Part shown: in pieces, positions 6,599 through 14,633 of the stretch
How positions within the stretch are numbered: the first letter of the stretch is position 1
How the letters are laid out: every line of letters starts with the position of its first letter
Assembly: GCA_913063365.1 (NCBI GenBank)
Contig: CAJXYC010000002.1
Span: 1-35,715 of the forward strand
Source of the DNA: an uncultured Cellulomonadaceae bacterium
Lineage (GTDB): Bacteria > Actinomycetota > Actinomycetes > Actinomycetales > Microbacteriaceae
DNA: 35,715 bases
Direction of reading: 5' to 3'
The notes under the pieces: model-generated
What the model was told of the DNA's origin: nothing
The model's database searches: none
What the model saw: the letters and a program-made list of their open reading frames with translations, nothing else
Made by a program: the position numbers and the translations under genes

Positions 6599-8497
6599 GT
6601 GGCGTCATCTCGTGAGACCAATTCCCCCAAACGTTCTGGGGGTATCGGCGGTGTGTTCAAACGTCTTGTCGGTCGCGGTTCCGACGCCCCAGCCTCAACC
6701 AGCCCACCCCAATCGAAGGATTCCTCCACCTCCGTGACCACGAAGACACCAACGAAGAAGCCCGCGGCCAGTAAGCCAACCACGAAGACTGCAGCGGCGA
6801 AAAAGCCTGCGGCAAAAACCACAGCCGCCAAAAAAGCGGCTGCCAAGACCACGGCAGCGAAGAAGCCCGCGGCGAAGTCCGCTCCGGCCAAGGCCACTGC
6901 GGCGAAGAAACCTGCGGCGAAGAAGCCTGTCGCAAAGACCACTGCTGCGAAGAAGCCCGCTACGAAGAAGCCCGCGGCCAAGACGACGACGGCGAAGAAG
7001 CCGGCTGCGAAAAAACCTGCGGCAAAGACCACTGCTGGGAAGAAACCGGCAGCAAAGAAACCTGCGGCCAAGAAGCCCGCGGCCAAGAAGCCTGTGGCGA
7101 AGACCGCGACGGCGAAGAAACCGGCCGCCAAGAAGCCTGCGGCAAAGACCACGACGGTGAAAAAGCCTGCCGCTAGGAAGCCCGCGGCGAAGTCCGCTCC
7201 GGCCAAGGCCACGGCGGCGAAGAAACCTGCGGCGAAGAAGCCGGCATCGAAGAAGCCCGCCGCCAAGACGGCTCCTGCAGCATCGAAGGCTTCCCCAGCG
7301 AAGGCGAGGAAAGAAGAAGAGGCCGCCGCTGTTGACGAGGAAGAGCCAGACGTTGAAGTCACTGAGGCGGATTCATCGGACGGCGGTGACAGTGTTGACG
7401 CCGACTCTGACGACGACGAGGTGGCTCCGGGCGAGGAACTTGACCCCCGCCAGGTTGAAGCCCTGGGTGCAGCGATGCTCCAGCAAGCTGCCGGTGGAGG
7501 AGAGGCTCTGCCCGCGGGAGCCATCGTCATCAAGTCCACCGATGAGGAAGACGTACCGGTCGTGTCGACGACCATTACCGGCGCCACTGCTGACCCAGTC
7601 AAGGACTACCTGAAGCAGATCGGAAAAGTTGCTCTGCTGAACGCCGAGCAGGAGGTGTCGCTGGCCTGGCGGATCGAAGCCGGTCTGTTTGCTGAAGAAA
7701 AGCTCTCCACCCTGACTCAGCGAGAGAAGACCACGAAGCTCGCCCGAGAACTTCACGAAATCGCAAAAGACGGCCAGCGCGCGAAGAACCACCTCCTGGG
7801 TGCAAACCTCCGTCTAGTGGTCTCCCTGGCCAAGCGCTACACCGGACGCGGAATGCAGTTCCTGGACCTCATCCAAGAGGGCAACTTGGGGTTGATTCGT
7901 GCCGTCGAAAAGTTCGACTACACCAAAGGCTTCAAGTTCTCGACCTACGCCACCTGGTGGATTCGCCAGGCAATTACCCGGGCGATGGCTGACCAGGCGC
8001 GAACAATTCGTATTCCGGTTCACATGGTCGAAGTCATCAACAAATTGGCCCGAGTGCAGCGGCAGATGTTGCAAGACCTTGGCCGAGAACCCACTCCCGA
8101 GGAGCTTGCTCGCGAACTGGATATGACTCCCGAAAAGGTCGTCGAAGTCCAGAAATACGGGCGCGAGCCGATTTCCCTCCACACGCCGCTCGGCGAAGAT
8201 GGCGACAGTGAGTTCGGTGACCTTATCGAGGACACTGAGGCAGTCGTCCCTGCCGATGCCGTGGGCTTTACGATGCTGCAACGCCAGCTCGAATCGCTTC
8301 TCGATTCGTTGTCTGAGCGTGAGGCGGGTGTAATCCGAATGCGTTTTGGCCTGGGAGATGGCCTGCCAAAGACTCTTGACCAGATTGGTGACACCTTCGG
8401 TGTCACTCGGGAGCGGATTCGACAAATAGAGTCCAAGACCATGGCGAAGTTGCGCCACCCCTCCCGGTCGCAGGCTCTGCGCGACTACCTCGAGTAA
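6599..8497 (+). CDS. sigA: Primary RNA polymerase sigma factor (RpoD/SigA/HrdB) with long Lys/Ala/Pro-rich N-terminal extension
   Basis: Regions 1.2-4: [115 protein letters not shown] start at 6599. Confidence 0.97.
6745..7280 (+). repeat. Intragenic low-complexity KKPAAK / [11 protein letters not shown]-type coding repeat in sigA
   Basis: Tandem degenerate units (aag-cct-gcg-gcg-aag). A 66-bp near-identical segment occurs at 6862-6927 and 7177-7242 with one visible mismatch. Confidence 0.9.
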
Positions 8498-8504
8498 GCC
8501 AGCC

Positions 8505-9776
8505 ATGCGCTACCGGCTTGCCCTCGCCGTTGGTCGGTTGATCCGCCGGCTGGCCCGGGCACGAGGTGGTGGCTCGGCGTTTCCGGGTCTCGTCGCCCTG
8601 CGCATCGATCCGCTCTTTTTGGAGCACTCGATTGGGCAGCTTCCTGGGGGAGTGATGTTCGTGACCGGCTCCAACGGGAAATCGACGACGACGTCGATGA
8701 TCGCCGCGATTCTGCGAGAGCACGGGAAAAAAGTGTTCACGAATCCAGCGGGGAGCAATCTTCCGCAGGGTCTTGCCTCAGCGGTGTTGGCCGATGCCGA
8801 CCGGCAGGGACGACTCCCTGCAGACCTGGCTGTGCTAGAGGTCGATGAGGCGTATGGTCCTCAGATTGCACGACACATCCCACCCGCTCATTTAGTGGTG
8901 ACCAATTTGCAGTTGGATCAACTCAATCGATTTGGCGAGCCGGAGCGGGTGTGGCAGATGATGAGGGACGTTGCCGAGCGCACGTCGGCGACCTTGCTCG
9001 TCAACCAACGAGAACCAGCACTCGTTGCCCTAGGCGAGGGACTCGAGGTTCGAGTCGACACGGTGGATGTTGCACAGTCGCTGGTGGATCAGTCCGGGGA
9101 TTCGCTTGGCGCGGCAGAGCTATTCGACGAGCGCTCCACCGCCACCGCCAGCGGGGCGCCACTTGTCACTCTGGAATCCCGGGGAACACGCAGCGCCATC
9201 GTCTCGGATGATTCGTCTCGCCACGAGATTTCCCTGCCGGACGAGGGCCTCCACTGGGCAATTGATGCGACCGTTGCTCTTGGAGCATCTCGGATTCTCC
9301 TCGGCGAGCAATGGTCGTGGGATGCGGCAGTACAGGCGTTTGCGTCCTTGCCCGTGGTCTACGGCCGCGGCGAGACAGTCCAGTGGAAGGGCGTCGATAT
9401 CACCCTGTTGATGCAGAAAAACCTTCCGAGCATGAGAGCAAACCTCTCCACTGTGAAGACCCAGCCGGAGAGAGTCTGGGTGGCCGTTGACGAGGGAACT
9501 CCTGATCCCTCGTGGATCTTTGACCTGGATTTGGGGCCACTAAAGAGAATCGACGTGCTCTCAGGCACCAAGGCCCATCAGTGGGCCATGTTCTTGGCCT
9601 ACCGAGGGGTCGCAGTGGGAGCAGTCATTGACGACACTGCTCAGGCCATGGATTACTTCTCTCAGGCAGGCACTGCCCCAGTCACAGCCATCGTCAACTA
9701 CGAGCAAATGATGGCGGTAAGACGGCTGGCGGGACGGAAAGACCTGGAGGCCCGGGTGGAAAGTGGGACGTCGTGA
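8505..9776 (+). CDS. MurT-like Mur ligase family protein (DUF1727 C-terminal domain), cysteine-free variant
   Basis: P-loop VTGSNGKSTTTSMIAAIL, VLEVDEAYGPQI, TNLQLDQLNRFGE, C-terminal PDPSWIFDLDL. Translationally coupled to a GatD-like gene. No Cys in 423 aa. Confidence 0.85.
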   Translation: MRYRLALAVGRLIRRLARARGGGSAFPGLVALRIDPLFLEHSIGQLPGGVMFVTGSNGKSTTTSMIAAILREHGKKVFTNPAGSNLPQGLASAVLADADRQGRLPADLAVLEVDEAYGPQIARHIPPAHLVVTNLQLDQLNRFGEPERVWQMMRDVAERTSATLLVNQREPALVALGEGLEVRVDTVDVAQSLVDQSGDSLGAAELFDERSTATASGAPLVTLESRGTRSAIVSDDSSRHEISLPDEGLHWAIDATVALGASRILLGEQWSWDAAVQAFASLPVVYGRGETVQWKGVDITLLMQKNLPSMRANLSTVKTQPERVWVAVDEGTPDPSWIFDLDLGPLKRIDVLSGTKAHQWAMFLAYRGVAVGAVIDDTAQAMDYFSQAGTAPVTAIVNYEQMMAVRRLAGRKDLEARVESGTS

Positions 9777-10471
9777 CAACGCTCCGCATTGTGCGGCTAC
9801 TGCCGGACCTGCTCTCGATTAACGGGTCTCTGGGGAATGCAGAAATCCTCCAGGCTCGGGCCTCGTGGTGGGGCTGGAAGGTGACGGTCAAAGACGTCAC
9901 TGAGGGAGCCACATTCCCCACCTCTGCCGACATTGTTGTGATCGGCCATGGCACGTCCTCGGCGACAACCCGGGCGCTCGCCGCGCTCCACGCTTGGTCT
10001 CCGCACATCCGCTCGGTACACGACAAAGGAGCCGCGATTCTCGGCCTGGGGCTGGGCGGCGACCTTCTGGGCCAGTCCGTTGAGCTGCGTGACGAGAAGC
10101 TCGAGGGTCTCGGAATGACCCCACTCGATGCCGTGTTGCAGCACCATCACGTCTCCACCGAAGTGTGGGGCGTGGATAGCGAGGGCCGTGAAAGCGCTGG
10201 TTATCTGAATGACCTCACCCAGAGGCCGGCTAGTCCCACACCGCTTCTTACCCTTAGCTCTCCACCTTCGGTCTCCGGCGGTGAGGGTCACCACACCAAT
10301 CGGATCTGGGTGTCGGCGGTATCGGGACCACTGCTTGGCCTAAACCCCCATATCGCTGACGACATTCTCCGCTCCCGCGATTCGCTCCCGGAGCCAACCG
10401 AGCGGCATGCGGTGGCAGATGCTGCGGCTGCCAAGGCCAGGCAGGCTATTGCCGGGAGGCTTGGGGTTTAG
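9773..10471 (+). CDS. GatD-like (CobB/CobQ-type class I amidotransferase fold) protein, predicted catalytically inactive glutaminase
   Basis: Overlaps MurT-like stop by 4 bp. LRIVRLLPDLLSINGSLGNAEILQARASWWGW resembles GatD N-terminus; nucleophile-elbow region reads ILGLGLGGDLLG; C-terminal VSAVSGPLLGLNPHIAD aligns with YLHGPLLPKNPxLAD. No Cys in the protein. Confidence 0.8.
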   Translation: MTTLRIVRLLPDLLSINGSLGNAEILQARASWWGWKVTVKDVTEGATFPTSADIVVIGHGTSSATTRALAALHAWSPHIRSVHDKGAAILGLGLGGDLLGQSVELRDEKLEGLGMTPLDAVLQHHHVSTEVWGVDSEGRESAGYLNDLTQRPASPTPLLTLSSPPSVSGGEGHHTNRIWVSAVSGPLLGLNPHIADDILRSRDSLPEPTERHAVADAAAAKARQAIAGRLGV

Positions 10472-11508
10472 TCAGCCCACGTCCGCGGGATGTTCGCGCT
10501 CAAGTGGACGAGAACTTCGTCACCGATGGTTCCGCACCAGGTGGCCCACTGTTCCACCGGGACGCCTCCTCGGCCCAGCACGCAGACGCTATCCCCGGGG
10601 GAGATGGATACTCCAGTCGGCCGTTCGATCACCATGTGATCCACCTCGACCCGTTTGACCGGACAGATGTTGCCAGACACCGACAGAGCCGCCTCCGCCA
10701 CGATCGGAGCGAGGAGTCCGTGACCAGAGCCCACGGCCAAGGTGACCGTATCTCCATCAACGCTCATGACAGGCGCATGGAGCTGGAGGACTGGGTGAAA
10801 GCCGAGGTCTTCAGCACTTCTGTTCGAGAGAGGGCTGACACCGTAGGCAAGAATTCCTAAACGCACCATGTCCAACCTGGCCTCCGGTGCATCCACCAGG
10901 GCGTGAGAGGCGGCCAAATGAAGCTGGTCAGGAGTGAGACCCGCTTCTCTCGCAGCGGTAGCGGCCTGCTGTAGCCGCTGGAGTGCCACGCGGGTGCTCT
11001 CTTCAGAGGTATCCGACAGGTGCGACCAGACGGCATGGACACGAAGTCTTCCTTGGCCTTCTAGCTCTGCAGCCTGGGTCACGAGTGCTGGCCACTGTTC
11101 CGCAGTGGCGCCATTTCGGTTAAGTCCGGTGTCCACTTTGAGGTGAACGATGGCGGGAGAGCTGGATGCGTGCCGGGCAATGTCAGCCAGCTGGCCGTCT
11201 GTCGAGACGCCCAAGTGAACCCCAGCGTTGACGGCCTCGGTGTAGTCCTGTCCCGGGGCAAAAAGCCAGGCCAGCAGCGGAGTATCGGGAGCGAGAGTTC
11301 TCGCTAAGACGGCTGTGTGGAGGTCCAGCACGGCCAGTGCGTCCACTTCTTCAGCGATTGCCGCGGGGGTGATCAGGTCCATTCCGTGGCCGTAAGCGTT
11401 TGATTTGACCGCCAGCATGAGGTCAGTGTCTGGCCCGCAGAGCTGGCGCGCCCTCTCGATGTTCTGCGAGAAGGCCTGCCTCGACAGTGTGATGGAGGGG
11501 CCTGTCAT
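10468..11508 (-). CDS. Alanine racemase-like fold-III PLP protein (atypical active site)
   Basis: N-terminal PLP-Lys motif LAVKSNAYGHG, HLKVDTGLNRNG, VWSHLSD, MVRLGILAYGVSP. ATG 11508 overlaps the upstream stop (ATGA). C-terminal motifs divergent. Confidence 0.85.
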   Translation of the reverse strand: MTGPSITLSRQAFSQNIERARQLCGPDTDLMLAVKSNAYGHGMDLITPAAIAEEVDALAVLDLHTAVLARTLAPDTPLLAWLFAPGQDYTEAVNAGVHLGVSTDGQLADIARHASSSPAIVHLKVDTGLNRNGATAEQWPALVTQAAELEGQGRLRVHAVWSHLSDTSEESTRVALQRLQQAATAAREAGLTPDQLHLAASHALVDAPEARLDMVRLGILAYGVSPLSNRSAEDLGFHPVLQLHAPVMSVDGDTVTLAVGSGHGLLAPIVAEAALSVSGNICPVKRVEVDHMVIERPTGVSISPGDSVCVLGRGGVPVEQWATWCGTIGDEVLVHLSANIPRTWAD

Positions 11509-12158
11509 TTGTTGTTTCCCATCCGCACCACGCGCGGACCAATTCCGGCACCGAGCAGCGTCACCGGGCGTCCAGACCACTCCGCCCATTCGTCAATCGA
11601 GACCGACCCGCCCCAGATCGTCACCTCATCGCCAATCGCAGGGGTGTGGGATCCGGCGTCGAGAATGAGTTGATCCATGGCAATGCGACCGGCGATGGGC
11701 AGGCGAATGCCCTGCCAGTCGACTTCCCCTCCCACGGGATCAAGCCTCGGCACGCCGTCAGCAAACCCGATCGCAACCAACGCCAGTGTGGTGCCAGTCT
11801 CGGTGCGATAAAGCCCTCCGTAGGACACGTCCTCGCCGGCAGGCACCGATTTCACATTCACCACCCGAGCCGACAGAACCTGTCCTCCCGCGCGGTGTGC
11901 ATCGACAACCCATTCGTCAGACCCGGAGTCCACGGCTGTCAGCCCCTTAATGCTCACCCCGTCGTCGAGACGGGCGTGTGAGAAACCAAGTGTGGCGGCA
12001 ATGGCACCTACTTTTTCAACGCCAAACCCGTATGCGTCTGCGCGCAGATCGAGTGGAGCGTCGTTGCCTCGGTCGGCAATGAGGCTCAGTGCCCGCTCAA
12101 GGGCAGAGGCTGGGTGTTCCACCCAGCGAAGGAGCTCTTTAGCTTGCGTCTGCGACAT
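11505..12158 (-). CDS. Alanine racemase C-terminal-domain protein (truncated racemase paralog)
   Basis: APLDLRADAYGFGVEKVGAIAATLG followed directly by a C-terminal domain: DVSYGGLYRTETGTTLALVAIGFADGVPRLDP..IAGRIAMDQLILD..IGDEVTIWG. Start chosen at ATG 12158 (MSQTQAKELL); the ORF-track extension to 12314 overlaps the DUF7455 gene. Confidence 0.8.
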   Translation of the reverse strand: MSQTQAKELLRWVEHPASALERALSLIADRGNDAPLDLRADAYGFGVEKVGAIAATLGFSHARLDDGVSIKGLTAVDSGSDEWVVDAHRAGGQVLSARVVNVKSVPAGEDVSYGGLYRTETGTTLALVAIGFADGVPRLDPVGGEVDWQGIRLPIAGRIAMDQLILDAGSHTPAIGDEVTIWGGSVSIDEWAEWSGRPVTLLGAGIGPRVVRMGNNK

Positions 12159-12372
12159 CGCGCAGGCGGTGGGTCTCGTCGTGCCAGACGAGCGCCGTGT
12201 CCGCGAGAGATTCGCGGTGCTTATCTGCGTGGTGTGCGCAGAAGAGAAGAGCACCGGAGGGCAGAGTGACTCGGACGTAGGCCTGAGCGCCGCAGCTGTC
12301 GCAGTGGTCGCCAAAACCGAGCGGAGTCTCGGCCTCGACGGAGCTGTCGATGGTGGCTGCTGTCTGAGTCAT
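12139..12372 (-). CDS. DUF7455-like small zinc-ribbon-type protein
   Basis: MTQTAATIDSS..HCDSCGAQAYVRVTLPSGALLFCAHHADKHRESLADTALVWHDET; Cys/His motif typical of the actinobacterial family near parE. Start ATG 12372. Confidence 0.8.
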   Translation of the reverse strand: MTQTAATIDSSVEAETPLGFGDHCDSCGAQAYVRVTLPSGALLFCAHHADKHRESLADTALVWHDETHRLRDVADAS

Positions 12373-12557
12373 ACGTGCATCCCTTCTCGAACGGTTATGA
12401 CATTCCACCACGCCCACACCGTCTTTTCCTGCAAGGAGGGTCCTGTTTCGCCCTACGCGTAGTTTTCCCCGAGTTCTGTGTGGCGCAGGTTCAGGCAGAC
12501 ATGGGTTGTCTATTCTCAGGTGTGGCTCACACGCGAGCTTTATGGGGGAAGGTGTCT

Positions 12558-14633
12558 GTGGCAGCGGATTCGTATTCAGCCAGGCACCTCTCGGTGTTGG
12601 AGGGCTTAGAAGCCGTTCGCAAACGCCCCGGAATGTATATCGGTTCGACCGACACCAGAGGGCTCATGCACTGCGTGTGGGAAATCATCGATAACGCCGT
12701 CGACGAAGCCATTGGGGGCTTTGGCGACGCCATCGACGTGGTGATCAGGACCGATGGCAGTGTGGAAATCATCGACCGCGGTAGGGGAGTGCCCGTCGAT
12801 GTGGAGCCCCGGACGGGACTAACAGGTGTCGAGCTCGTGTTCACCAAGCTCCACGCGGGGGGCAAATTCGGTAGCGACTCGTATCAGTCAAGCGGTGGGT
12901 TACACGGTGTCGGCGCGTCTGTCGTGAACGCATTAGCCTCCCGAGTCGATGTCGAAGTTGATCGCGACGGCGCCACCTGGGCCATGTCGTTTCGTCGCGG
13001 CGAACCCGGGGTGTTTAAAGACCCCGCAGACCCTGCTCCAGACGCCGAGTTTTCTCCCTTTGTGGACGGCAGCGAGCTGAAAAAAGTCGGGAAGGTCGCG
13101 AAGAAAACGACCGGCACCAGGGTGCGGTTCTGGCCAGATCCTCAAGTGTTTGGCGATGCCACCCTGTCTTCTGCCGACCTGTTGGATCGCGCGCGTCAGA
13201 CCGCGTTTCTGGTGCCCGGTCTCACGCTCACGATTCGCGACACTCGCGAGACTCCAGAGACCAGCGAATCCTTCCGTTACGACGGCGGGGCAACCGAGTT
13301 TGCCGAATACCTCGCACCAGACCCCGCGGTGGTCGGACCGTGGCGACTAAGCGGCAGTGGAACGTTTACCGAAACAGTGCCCGTGCTGCACGATGACGGG
13401 CATTTGGAGCCGGCTGAGGTCGAGCGGGAGATGGCTGTCGACGTCGTGGTCCAGTGGGGGACTGGATACGACACCGTGGTGAAGAGCTTCGTCAACATCA
13501 TTCAAACCCCCAAAGGCGGCTCACACCTCCAAGGTTTTGACCAGGCCCTGATGAAAACTCTCCGCGCAGAGGTGGAGAAGAATGCCAGGCGCCTCAAAGT
13601 CGGCAACGACAAGTTGGAAAAAGACGATGTCCTGGCCGGATTAACAGCTGTGGTGGCTGTCCGTGTTCCGGAGCCGCAATTCGAGGGCCAGACAAAGGAA
13701 GTGTTGGGGACCCCTGCGGCAAAAAGCATTGTCCAGGCCGTGGTGTCCGAAGGGCTTCGGGCCCGACTCCAGTCAGGGAAGCGAGACGATAAGGCGCAAT
13801 CGGCGATGCTGCTGGAAAAAATCGTCGCGGAGATGAAAACGCGGGTGTCTGCGCGGGCATTGAAAGAAACCCAACGTCGCAAGACAGCGCTCGAGAACTC
13901 CACTTTGCCGACCAAGTTGGTGGATTGTCGCAGCAAGGGAGTCGACGACACGGAGTTGTTCATTGTGGAGGGTGATTCGGCGCTTGGCACCGCGAAACTT
14001 GCGCGCGATTCGGAACACCAGGCCCTATTGCCCATCCGGGGAAAGATTCTGAACACCCAAAAGGCCAGCCTCCAGGACATGTTGAACAACCAAGAGTGCG
14101 CCGCGATCATTCAGGTGATTGGCGCGGGGTCTGGTCGCACTTTTGATCTGGAGCAGGCGCGCTACGGAAAAGTCATCATTATGAGCGACGCCGACGTCGA
14201 TGGTGCCCATATCCGGACGTTGCTGCTCACGTTGTTCTTCCGTTACATGCGGCCCCTGGTGGAGGAAGGGCGAGTGTTCGCCGCGGTCCCACCACTGCAT
14301 CGAATTGTGGTCAAACACCGTGGGAGTACCCCCAACGACGTCATCTACACCTACTCGGAAGCGGAGTTGAACGCCGTGATGGCTGACCTGGAGAAAAAAG
14401 GCTTGTCCTACGAAGACCCAATCCAGCGCTACAAGGGCCTTGGGGAGATGGACGCCGACCAGCTGGCAGAGACGACGATGTCGCCTGCCAAACGGATGCT
14501 CCGGCGGGTTCGAATGGCCGATGCCGAAGCGGCAACGGCGATGTTCGAGTTACTGATGGGCAATGAGGTCCAGCCGAGGCGAGAGTTCATTCAAGAACGT
14601 CCCTACGTCGACACCTCACGAATCGACGTTTAG
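12558..14633 (+). CDS. parE: Type IIA topoisomerase B subunit (topoisomerase IV ParE / GyrB-like)
   Basis: GLEAVRKRPGMYIGSTDTRGLMHCVWEIIDNAVDEA, GGLHGVGASVVNALA, ELFIVEGDSALGTAK, IMSDADVDGAHIRTLLLT. GTG start 12558 chosen from the upstream GGGGGAAGG. Confidence 0.93.
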   Translation: MAADSYSARHLSVLEGLEAVRKRPGMYIGSTDTRGLMHCVWEIIDNAVDEAIGGFGDAIDVVIRTDGSVEIIDRGRGVPVDVEPRTGLTGVELVFTKLHAGGKFGSDSYQSSGGLHGVGASVVNALASRVDVEVDRDGATWAMSFRRGEPGVFKDPADPAPDAEFSPFVDGSELKKVGKVAKKTTGTRVRFWPDPQVFGDATLSSADLLDRARQTAFLVPGLTLTIRDTRETPETSESFRYDGGATEFAEYLAPDPAVVGPWRLSGSGTFTETVPVLHDDGHLEPAEVEREMAVDVVVQWGTGYDTVVKSFVNIIQTPKGGSHLQGFDQALMKTLRAEVEKNARRLKVGNDKLEKDDVLAGLTAVVAVRVPEPQFEGQTKEVLGTPAAKSIVQAVVSEGLRARLQSGKRDDKAQSAMLLEKIVAEMKTRVSARALKETQRRKTALENSTLPTKLVDCRSKGVDDTELFIVEGDSALGTAKLARDSEHQALLPIRGKILNTQKASLQDMLNNQECAAIIQVIGAGSGRTFDLEQARYGKVIIMSDADVDGAHIRTLLLTLFFRYMRPLVEEGRVFAAVPPLHRIVVKHRGSTPNDVIYTYSEAELNAVMADLEKKGLSYEDPIQRYKGLGEMDADQLAETTMSPAKRMLRRVRMADAEAATAMFELLMGNEVQPRREFIQERPYVDTSRIDV

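Follow-up and report, generated by a model that had tools for sequence, protein, structure and literature searches.

The window, a 35,715-nt stretch of contig CAJXYC010000002.1 from an uncultured Cellulomonadaceae bacterium, contains two adjacent homologues of alanine racemase, a short and a long one, encoded on the reverse strand (Table 1). The reading frames of the window confirm the short ORF and its ATGA junction with the long gene, as given in the original prediction. The genes flanking the end of the long gene are presumably murT-gatD, and would act in lipid II amidation. Upstream of the short gene, a small Cys-containing protein, presumably of the DUF7455 kind, is encoded by a gene sharing 20 bases with the short gene. 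The order parE / DUF7455 / short / long / gatD-murT is common to relatives: the pair always lies beside parE, usually together with the small DUF7455-type gene, and gatD-murT is found on the other side in most loci. Because the DUF7455-type gene overlaps the short gene and accompanies the pair in most genera, the three genes may be translationally coupled. The window also encodes an RpoD-type sigma factor (6599-8497, + strand) with a very long N-terminal Lys/Ala/Pro-rich repeat made of KKPAAK units.

Table 1. Features of the racemase-like locus, in window coordinates.
Feature	Position	Strand	Remark
Short gene, 217 aa	11505..12158	-	Barrel stub and well-kept alanine racemase C-terminal domain
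Long gene, 346 aa	10468..11508	-	Complete PLP barrel and C-terminal domain with the Tyr265 segment deleted
ATGA, overlap of short-gene stop and long-gene start	11505..11508	-	
Arg39 of short protein, PLP-lysine position (Lys39 in known alanine racemases)	12042..12044	-	Codon CGC
Tyr113 of short protein, motif VSYG, equivalent of catalytic Tyr265	11820..11822	-	Codon TAC
Phe132 of short protein, Tyr284 position	11763..11765	-	
Met161-Asp162 of short protein, equivalent of Met312-Asp313	11673..11678	-	
Lys35 of long protein, PLP-binding lysine (Lys39)	11404..11406	-	Codon AAA
Protein of about 77 aa, Cys-containing, DUF7455 kind (presumed), upstream of short gene	12139..12372	-	Reading frame
parE-like type II topoisomerase B subunit	12375..14633	+	Conserved flank
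murT-gatD-like genes (presumed)	8505..10471	+	Conserved convergent flank; 4-base overlap with the end of the long gene

The short protein was predicted to skip most of the barrel while keeping its C-terminal domain, and its neighbour to show the opposite pattern; both statements hold at the level of Pfam profiles. In the short protein, Ala_racemase_C (PF00842) is the sole match (E 6e-29) and most of the barrel is absent. In contrast, the long protein has a full Ala_racemase_N domain (PF01168, E 1e-47), followed by a weak and truncated C-terminal domain (PF00842, E 3e-8, profile positions 31-127). TIGR00492, the alanine racemase equivalog, describes the whole protein in one chain with a curated cut-off of 168 bits; the short protein scores 95 bits and the long protein 149 bits, both single chains falling below the cut-off. 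The pair almost certainly originates from alanine racemase.

In known alanine racemases, each active site is formed by the barrel of one subunit and the C-terminal domain of the other (PMC3245724); acid-base catalysis is shared by two residues, the PLP-binding Lys39 and the Tyr265 contributed by the partner (PMC6411801). Because these sites span two subunits, a barrel-only protein and a protein providing only the C-terminal domain could in principle build one site. In the window, the PLP-lysine is found in the long protein (Lys35), while the catalytic Tyr265 and Met312-Asp313 are provided by the short protein alone, in which Arg replaces the PLP-lysine as originally read. On one point the original prediction was wrong: it placed a Phe at Tyr265, but Tyr113 is intact and invariant in all relatives aligned, and the Phe is located at the Tyr284 position, a substitution found in Pontimonas short proteins.

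Relatives came from whole-genome sequences of the family and from named contigs, the latter placing the window in the genus Pontimonas or very close to it, and the catalytic positions were tabulated for 42 pairs; the short protein was aligned with 18 relatives (alignment A1) and the long protein in alignment A2. Lys39 is present in 42 of 42 long proteins and in none of the 42 short ones, 21 of which have a stub too short for profile alignment at this position. Among the short proteins aligned in A1, the position is occupied by Arg in all Pontimonas-type proteins and by Asp in L055, and nowhere by Lys. Conversely, Tyr265 is found in every short protein and in no long protein (42/42 and 0/42), Met312 in 42 and Asp313 in 39 of the 42 short proteins, and an intact Met-Asp in a single long protein out of 42. 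All four of the barrel residues Arg136, His166, Ser/Thr204 and Arg219 are kept in the 42 long proteins. This complementarity, seen in all the pairs tabulated, is far from chance.

The partition extends to other columns of the C-terminal domain. Short proteins retain VSY, the PR-motif Arg and GRxAM, all of which have disappeared from long proteins, whereas a TIxYE motif near the C-terminus is split in the opposite direction (long proteins: T 0.94, E 1.00; short proteins: T 0.05, E 0.16); ordinary alanine racemases keep both sets. In the numbering of alanine racemase, TIxYE presumably lies just before residues 351-358. In the active site of alanine racemase, residues 351-358 belong to the same monomer as the barrel, while residues 263-266, 283-287 and 309-314 come from the partner monomer (PMC3245724). 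Judging from this position of TIxYE, just before residues of the barrel's own monomer, each protein may keep what faces a single surviving site.

Conservation of the pair as a unit, a check proposed with the original prediction, was observed in at least 28 of the 80 genera of the family (count from genome surveys). Relatives carrying only one of the two genes, which had been named as evidence against the prediction, were looked for at the genus level: neither a degenerate long gene without a short one nor a short gene without a long one was found, except at contig ends in draft genomes. In every listed junction the start codon of the long gene is located at, or at most about 10 bases from, the stop codon of the short gene, except in genome G033, in which the overlap is replaced by a 53-base gap and the long protein has Asn for Tyr43. 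Seen alone, the short gene looks truncated, and frameshifts do occur in some MAGs of the set (e.g., L059), as would be expected if the two genes were pseudogenes decaying after a duplication, or a single gene split by a sequencing or assembly error. However, the same architecture recurs across these genera, closed genomes included, and its motifs are invariant over deep divergence. Moreover, pairwise dN/dS is about 0.1-0.35 over the whole of both the short and the long genes, and stays well below 1 even in the barrel stub (0.20-0.51) and the degenerate C-terminal domain (0.11-0.38). Decay or breakage is hence extremely improbable, and this reading was rejected as refuted by conservation.

Natural fusions join the same two halves. 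At a second locus, next to tsaE, three genera carry a single ORF of about 620-800 aa which contains, in this order, a barrel, a degenerate C-terminal domain, a barrel stub and an intact C-terminal domain. One carrier of this long-short fusion is [Zimmermannella] faecalis (L140), whose protein reaches 264 bits against TIGR00492. At the parE locus, the pair of G252 is fused in the operon order, short-long, into a protein of 832 aa (L170). Every fused protein contains exactly one Lys-bearing barrel and one Tyr-bearing C-terminal domain, and the TIxYE motif is partitioned in the same manner, with T and E both at 1.00 in the first C-terminal domain and at 0.00 in the second. Complete genomes such as G232 and G133 encode no alanine racemase C-terminal domain other than those of the long-short fusion. 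In six genomes of genus g68 (L166, L167, L168, L177, L178 and L179), the long-short racemase ORFs, of 745-789 aa, are further joined to TsaE; the TsaE domain was confirmed by Pfam in L166, this one of the six (PF02367, E 2e-27), and would represent a racemase-tRNA modification fusion. At the tsaE locus of one genome (L198, G113:C2), which also carries a parE-locus pair (L197), the two genes are separate but in reverse order: the long gene precedes the short one, whose product has Thr in place of the Lys.

The barrel stub retains the motif DL(R/T)ADAYGxG in both systems, the parE-locus pair and the tsaE-locus fusions, which suggests a structural role. In an AlphaFold2 model of the short protein (pLDDT 82, pTM 0.75), the stub forms a strand-helix-helix-strand on the C-terminal domain, and a comparison of the model with the PDB gives alanine racemases as the best matches (E 9e-15; TM 0.68, normalised by query length). 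The model of the fused L140 protein is partly confident (pLDDT 71, pTM 0.65). Its match to alanine racemase chains covers both domains, but the rmsd is 16 A and the TM 0.64, so the second C-terminal domain would not occupy the place of the own-monomer C-terminal domain, which is compatible with a partner-like position.

The genome of G033 consists of a single complete contig of 927,303 bases with 46% GC, in which one barrel match and one C-terminal domain match were found genome-wide, both belonging to the split pair. The genome of Tropheryma whipplei is 927 kb long with 46% GC (PMC9147804). G033 is likely to be T. whipplei, the Whipple's disease bacterium, which apparently has no alanine racemase besides the split pair. 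Because a Ddl homologue is present, G033 should need D-alanine. A D-amino-acid transaminase was considered as its source: the 293-aa class IV candidate is instead an aminodeoxychorismate lyase (449.5 bits, cut-off 273), and the second class IV aminotransferase, judging by its 365 aa, is presumably of the branched-chain type. D-alanine could still reach G033 by uptake or be made there by a promiscuous enzyme such as GlyA.

Every comparative test run supports the hybrid site of the original prediction, with Lys from the long protein and Tyr and Met-Asp from the short one: the reciprocal loss in 42 of 42 pairs, the third split motif, the gene overlap, the fusions in both orders, the purifying selection and the sole-copy genomes. 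It is highly likely that the pair encodes an obligate fold-type III heterodimeric racemase with one composite site, which arose by tandem duplication and complementary loss. The long subunit would supply the barrel, the PLP-lysine and the other barrel residues, and the short subunit the partner C-terminal domain with the catalytic Tyr and Met-Asp. The second, symmetry-related site would be lost, since it would need a barrel from the short protein and a Tyr segment from the long one, and both are missing. Very probably, neither protein functions without the other, and the two make up a single asymmetric enzyme. That neither protein alone has both halves of a site argues against a homodimer with two interface sites. 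The case for an obligate heteromeric racemase is strong, and from the sequences we infer interaction, catalysis and one site per dimer.

It could also be imagined that the short protein binds a full-length Alr as a pseudo-subunit with a regulatory or scaffolding role, the long protein being a separate PLP protein devoid of racemase activity. Many genomes do keep a full-length alr as a potential partner, and activation of an enzyme by a catalytically dead paralog has precedents, such as the AdoMetDC prozyme (PMC5201418). However, a regulatory role does not require that Tyr, Met and Asp persist in 39 to 42 of the 42 short proteins when the operon partner has lost these residues. In addition, the fusions join these two halves to each other, and one complete genome, G033, has no full-length alr to regulate. 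This explanation is very unlikely.

For the heterodimeric racemase, the substrate is a separate question. Where the pair is the only alr homologue, alanine is most likely the substrate. In most genomes, however, the pair is accompanied by an ordinary alr; this is also the case in the genome of the window, where the gene is a fragment at a contig edge and shares 62.5% identity with its G005 counterpart. Because of this, the pair is not the sole source of D-alanine in the species of the window and in most relatives that have it. Confidence in alanine as the substrate in the species of the window is thus moderate, and there the pair may be a second source of D-alanine or act on another amino acid. 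It is possible, if rather unlikely, that the same heterodimer acts on another substrate (e.g., the D-diamino acids of the type-B peptidoglycan of the family) and that the ordinary Alr makes D-alanine. Such a role would fit the co-occurring alr, the change of Tyr284 to Phe in Pontimonas and the adjacent murT-gatD, which act on peptidoglycan precursors. Yet G033 carries the pair and no other alr while having Ddl, which uses D-alanine, and the tsaE-locus fusions replace the ordinary alr altogether. Among full-length Alr paralogs, L203 (G109:C9) and the first tandem genes L063 and L096 have Asn for Asp313, and L066 (G032) has Cys at this position; these are possibly racemases of other specificity.

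The origin of the split pair can be approached from Herbiconiux, Clavibacter, Frigoribacterium, Planctomonas and Subtercola, in which two full-length alr genes with all catalytic residues lie in tandem at the tsaE locus. A tree of barrels unites the long proteins with the second tandem genes in one clade (bootstrap 100, SH-aLRT 97), outside which the tsaE-locus fusions group separately (97/99). Because the barrels fall in separate clades, the two loci drew them from different copies. Full-length tandem pairs probably represent the undegenerated ancestral state. L057, L187 and L199, in which the first gene has a longer but dead barrel (Lys replaced by Thr, Gly or Ser), are plausible intermediates. 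Tandem duplication of alr, followed by complementary loss, would have produced the split pair, the long barrel of the parE locus belonging to the clade of the second gene of the intact tandem pairs; at the tsaE locus, other genera would have ended with both halves fused in one chain. On balance, it seems somewhat favoured that symmetry was abandoned at two loci by complementary loss, giving obligate two-gene heterodimers and single-chain pseudo-dimers, with the ordinary enzyme replaced in at least one host-adapted pathogen. The two outcomes would perhaps be mirror images, the second gene becoming the barrel and the first the C-terminal domain at the parE locus, and the first gene becoming the barrel at the tsaE locus. 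A tree of C-terminal domains, with few columns and many open forks, groups the short C-terminal domain of L198 with the second tandem genes (96 SH-aLRT) and leaves most fused C-terminal domains unplaced; it is too weak to settle the mirror-image idea and provides a hint only.

Compared with Alr/DadX (fold type III, PF01168 and PF00842), the pair shares homology in the barrel and C-terminal domain, the PLP-lysine motif, the catalytic Tyr and Met-Asp, and an active site built from the barrel of one chain and the C-terminal domain of another. Known Alr/DadX homodimers, however, pair two copies of the same two-domain chain and have two sites, whereas in the pair these contributions are carried by separate, reciprocally degenerate proteins, leaving one possible site. 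The tandem alr pairs of the tsaE locus resemble it by the barrel of their second gene (100/97) and differ in that neither gene is truncated or lacks a catalytic residue. The pair is also reminiscent of the trypanosomatid AdoMetDC-prozyme and of the deoxyhypusine synthase heteromers, in which activity depends on association with a paralog that is itself dead or impaired alone. Unlike the prozyme, which activates allosterically (PMC5201418), the partner in the pair would supply catalytic residues directly. Furthermore, a prozyme-type system would have a complete site in one partner and none in the other, whereas here each protein keeps a different part of the site, so that both members are predicted to be defective alone; the family is also unrelated. 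Fold, chemistry and site geometry would be those of alanine racemase; in the open-licence literature, no relevant description was found of a heterodimeric or split alanine racemase, or of an enzyme of this kind shared out between two proteins that depend on each other.

Textbooks present alanine racemase as a homodimer, and the enzyme is targeted by a drug, cycloserine. An asymmetric form of wide occurrence would illustrate how an inter-subunit site makes duplicated genes mutually dependent, with intermediates visible in living genera as full-length tandem pairs, dead uncut barrels, stubs and fusions. When these genes are annotated as one "truncated" and one "degenerate" racemase, an enzyme is overlooked on which some species may depend for viability, including that of the likely T. 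whipplei genome.
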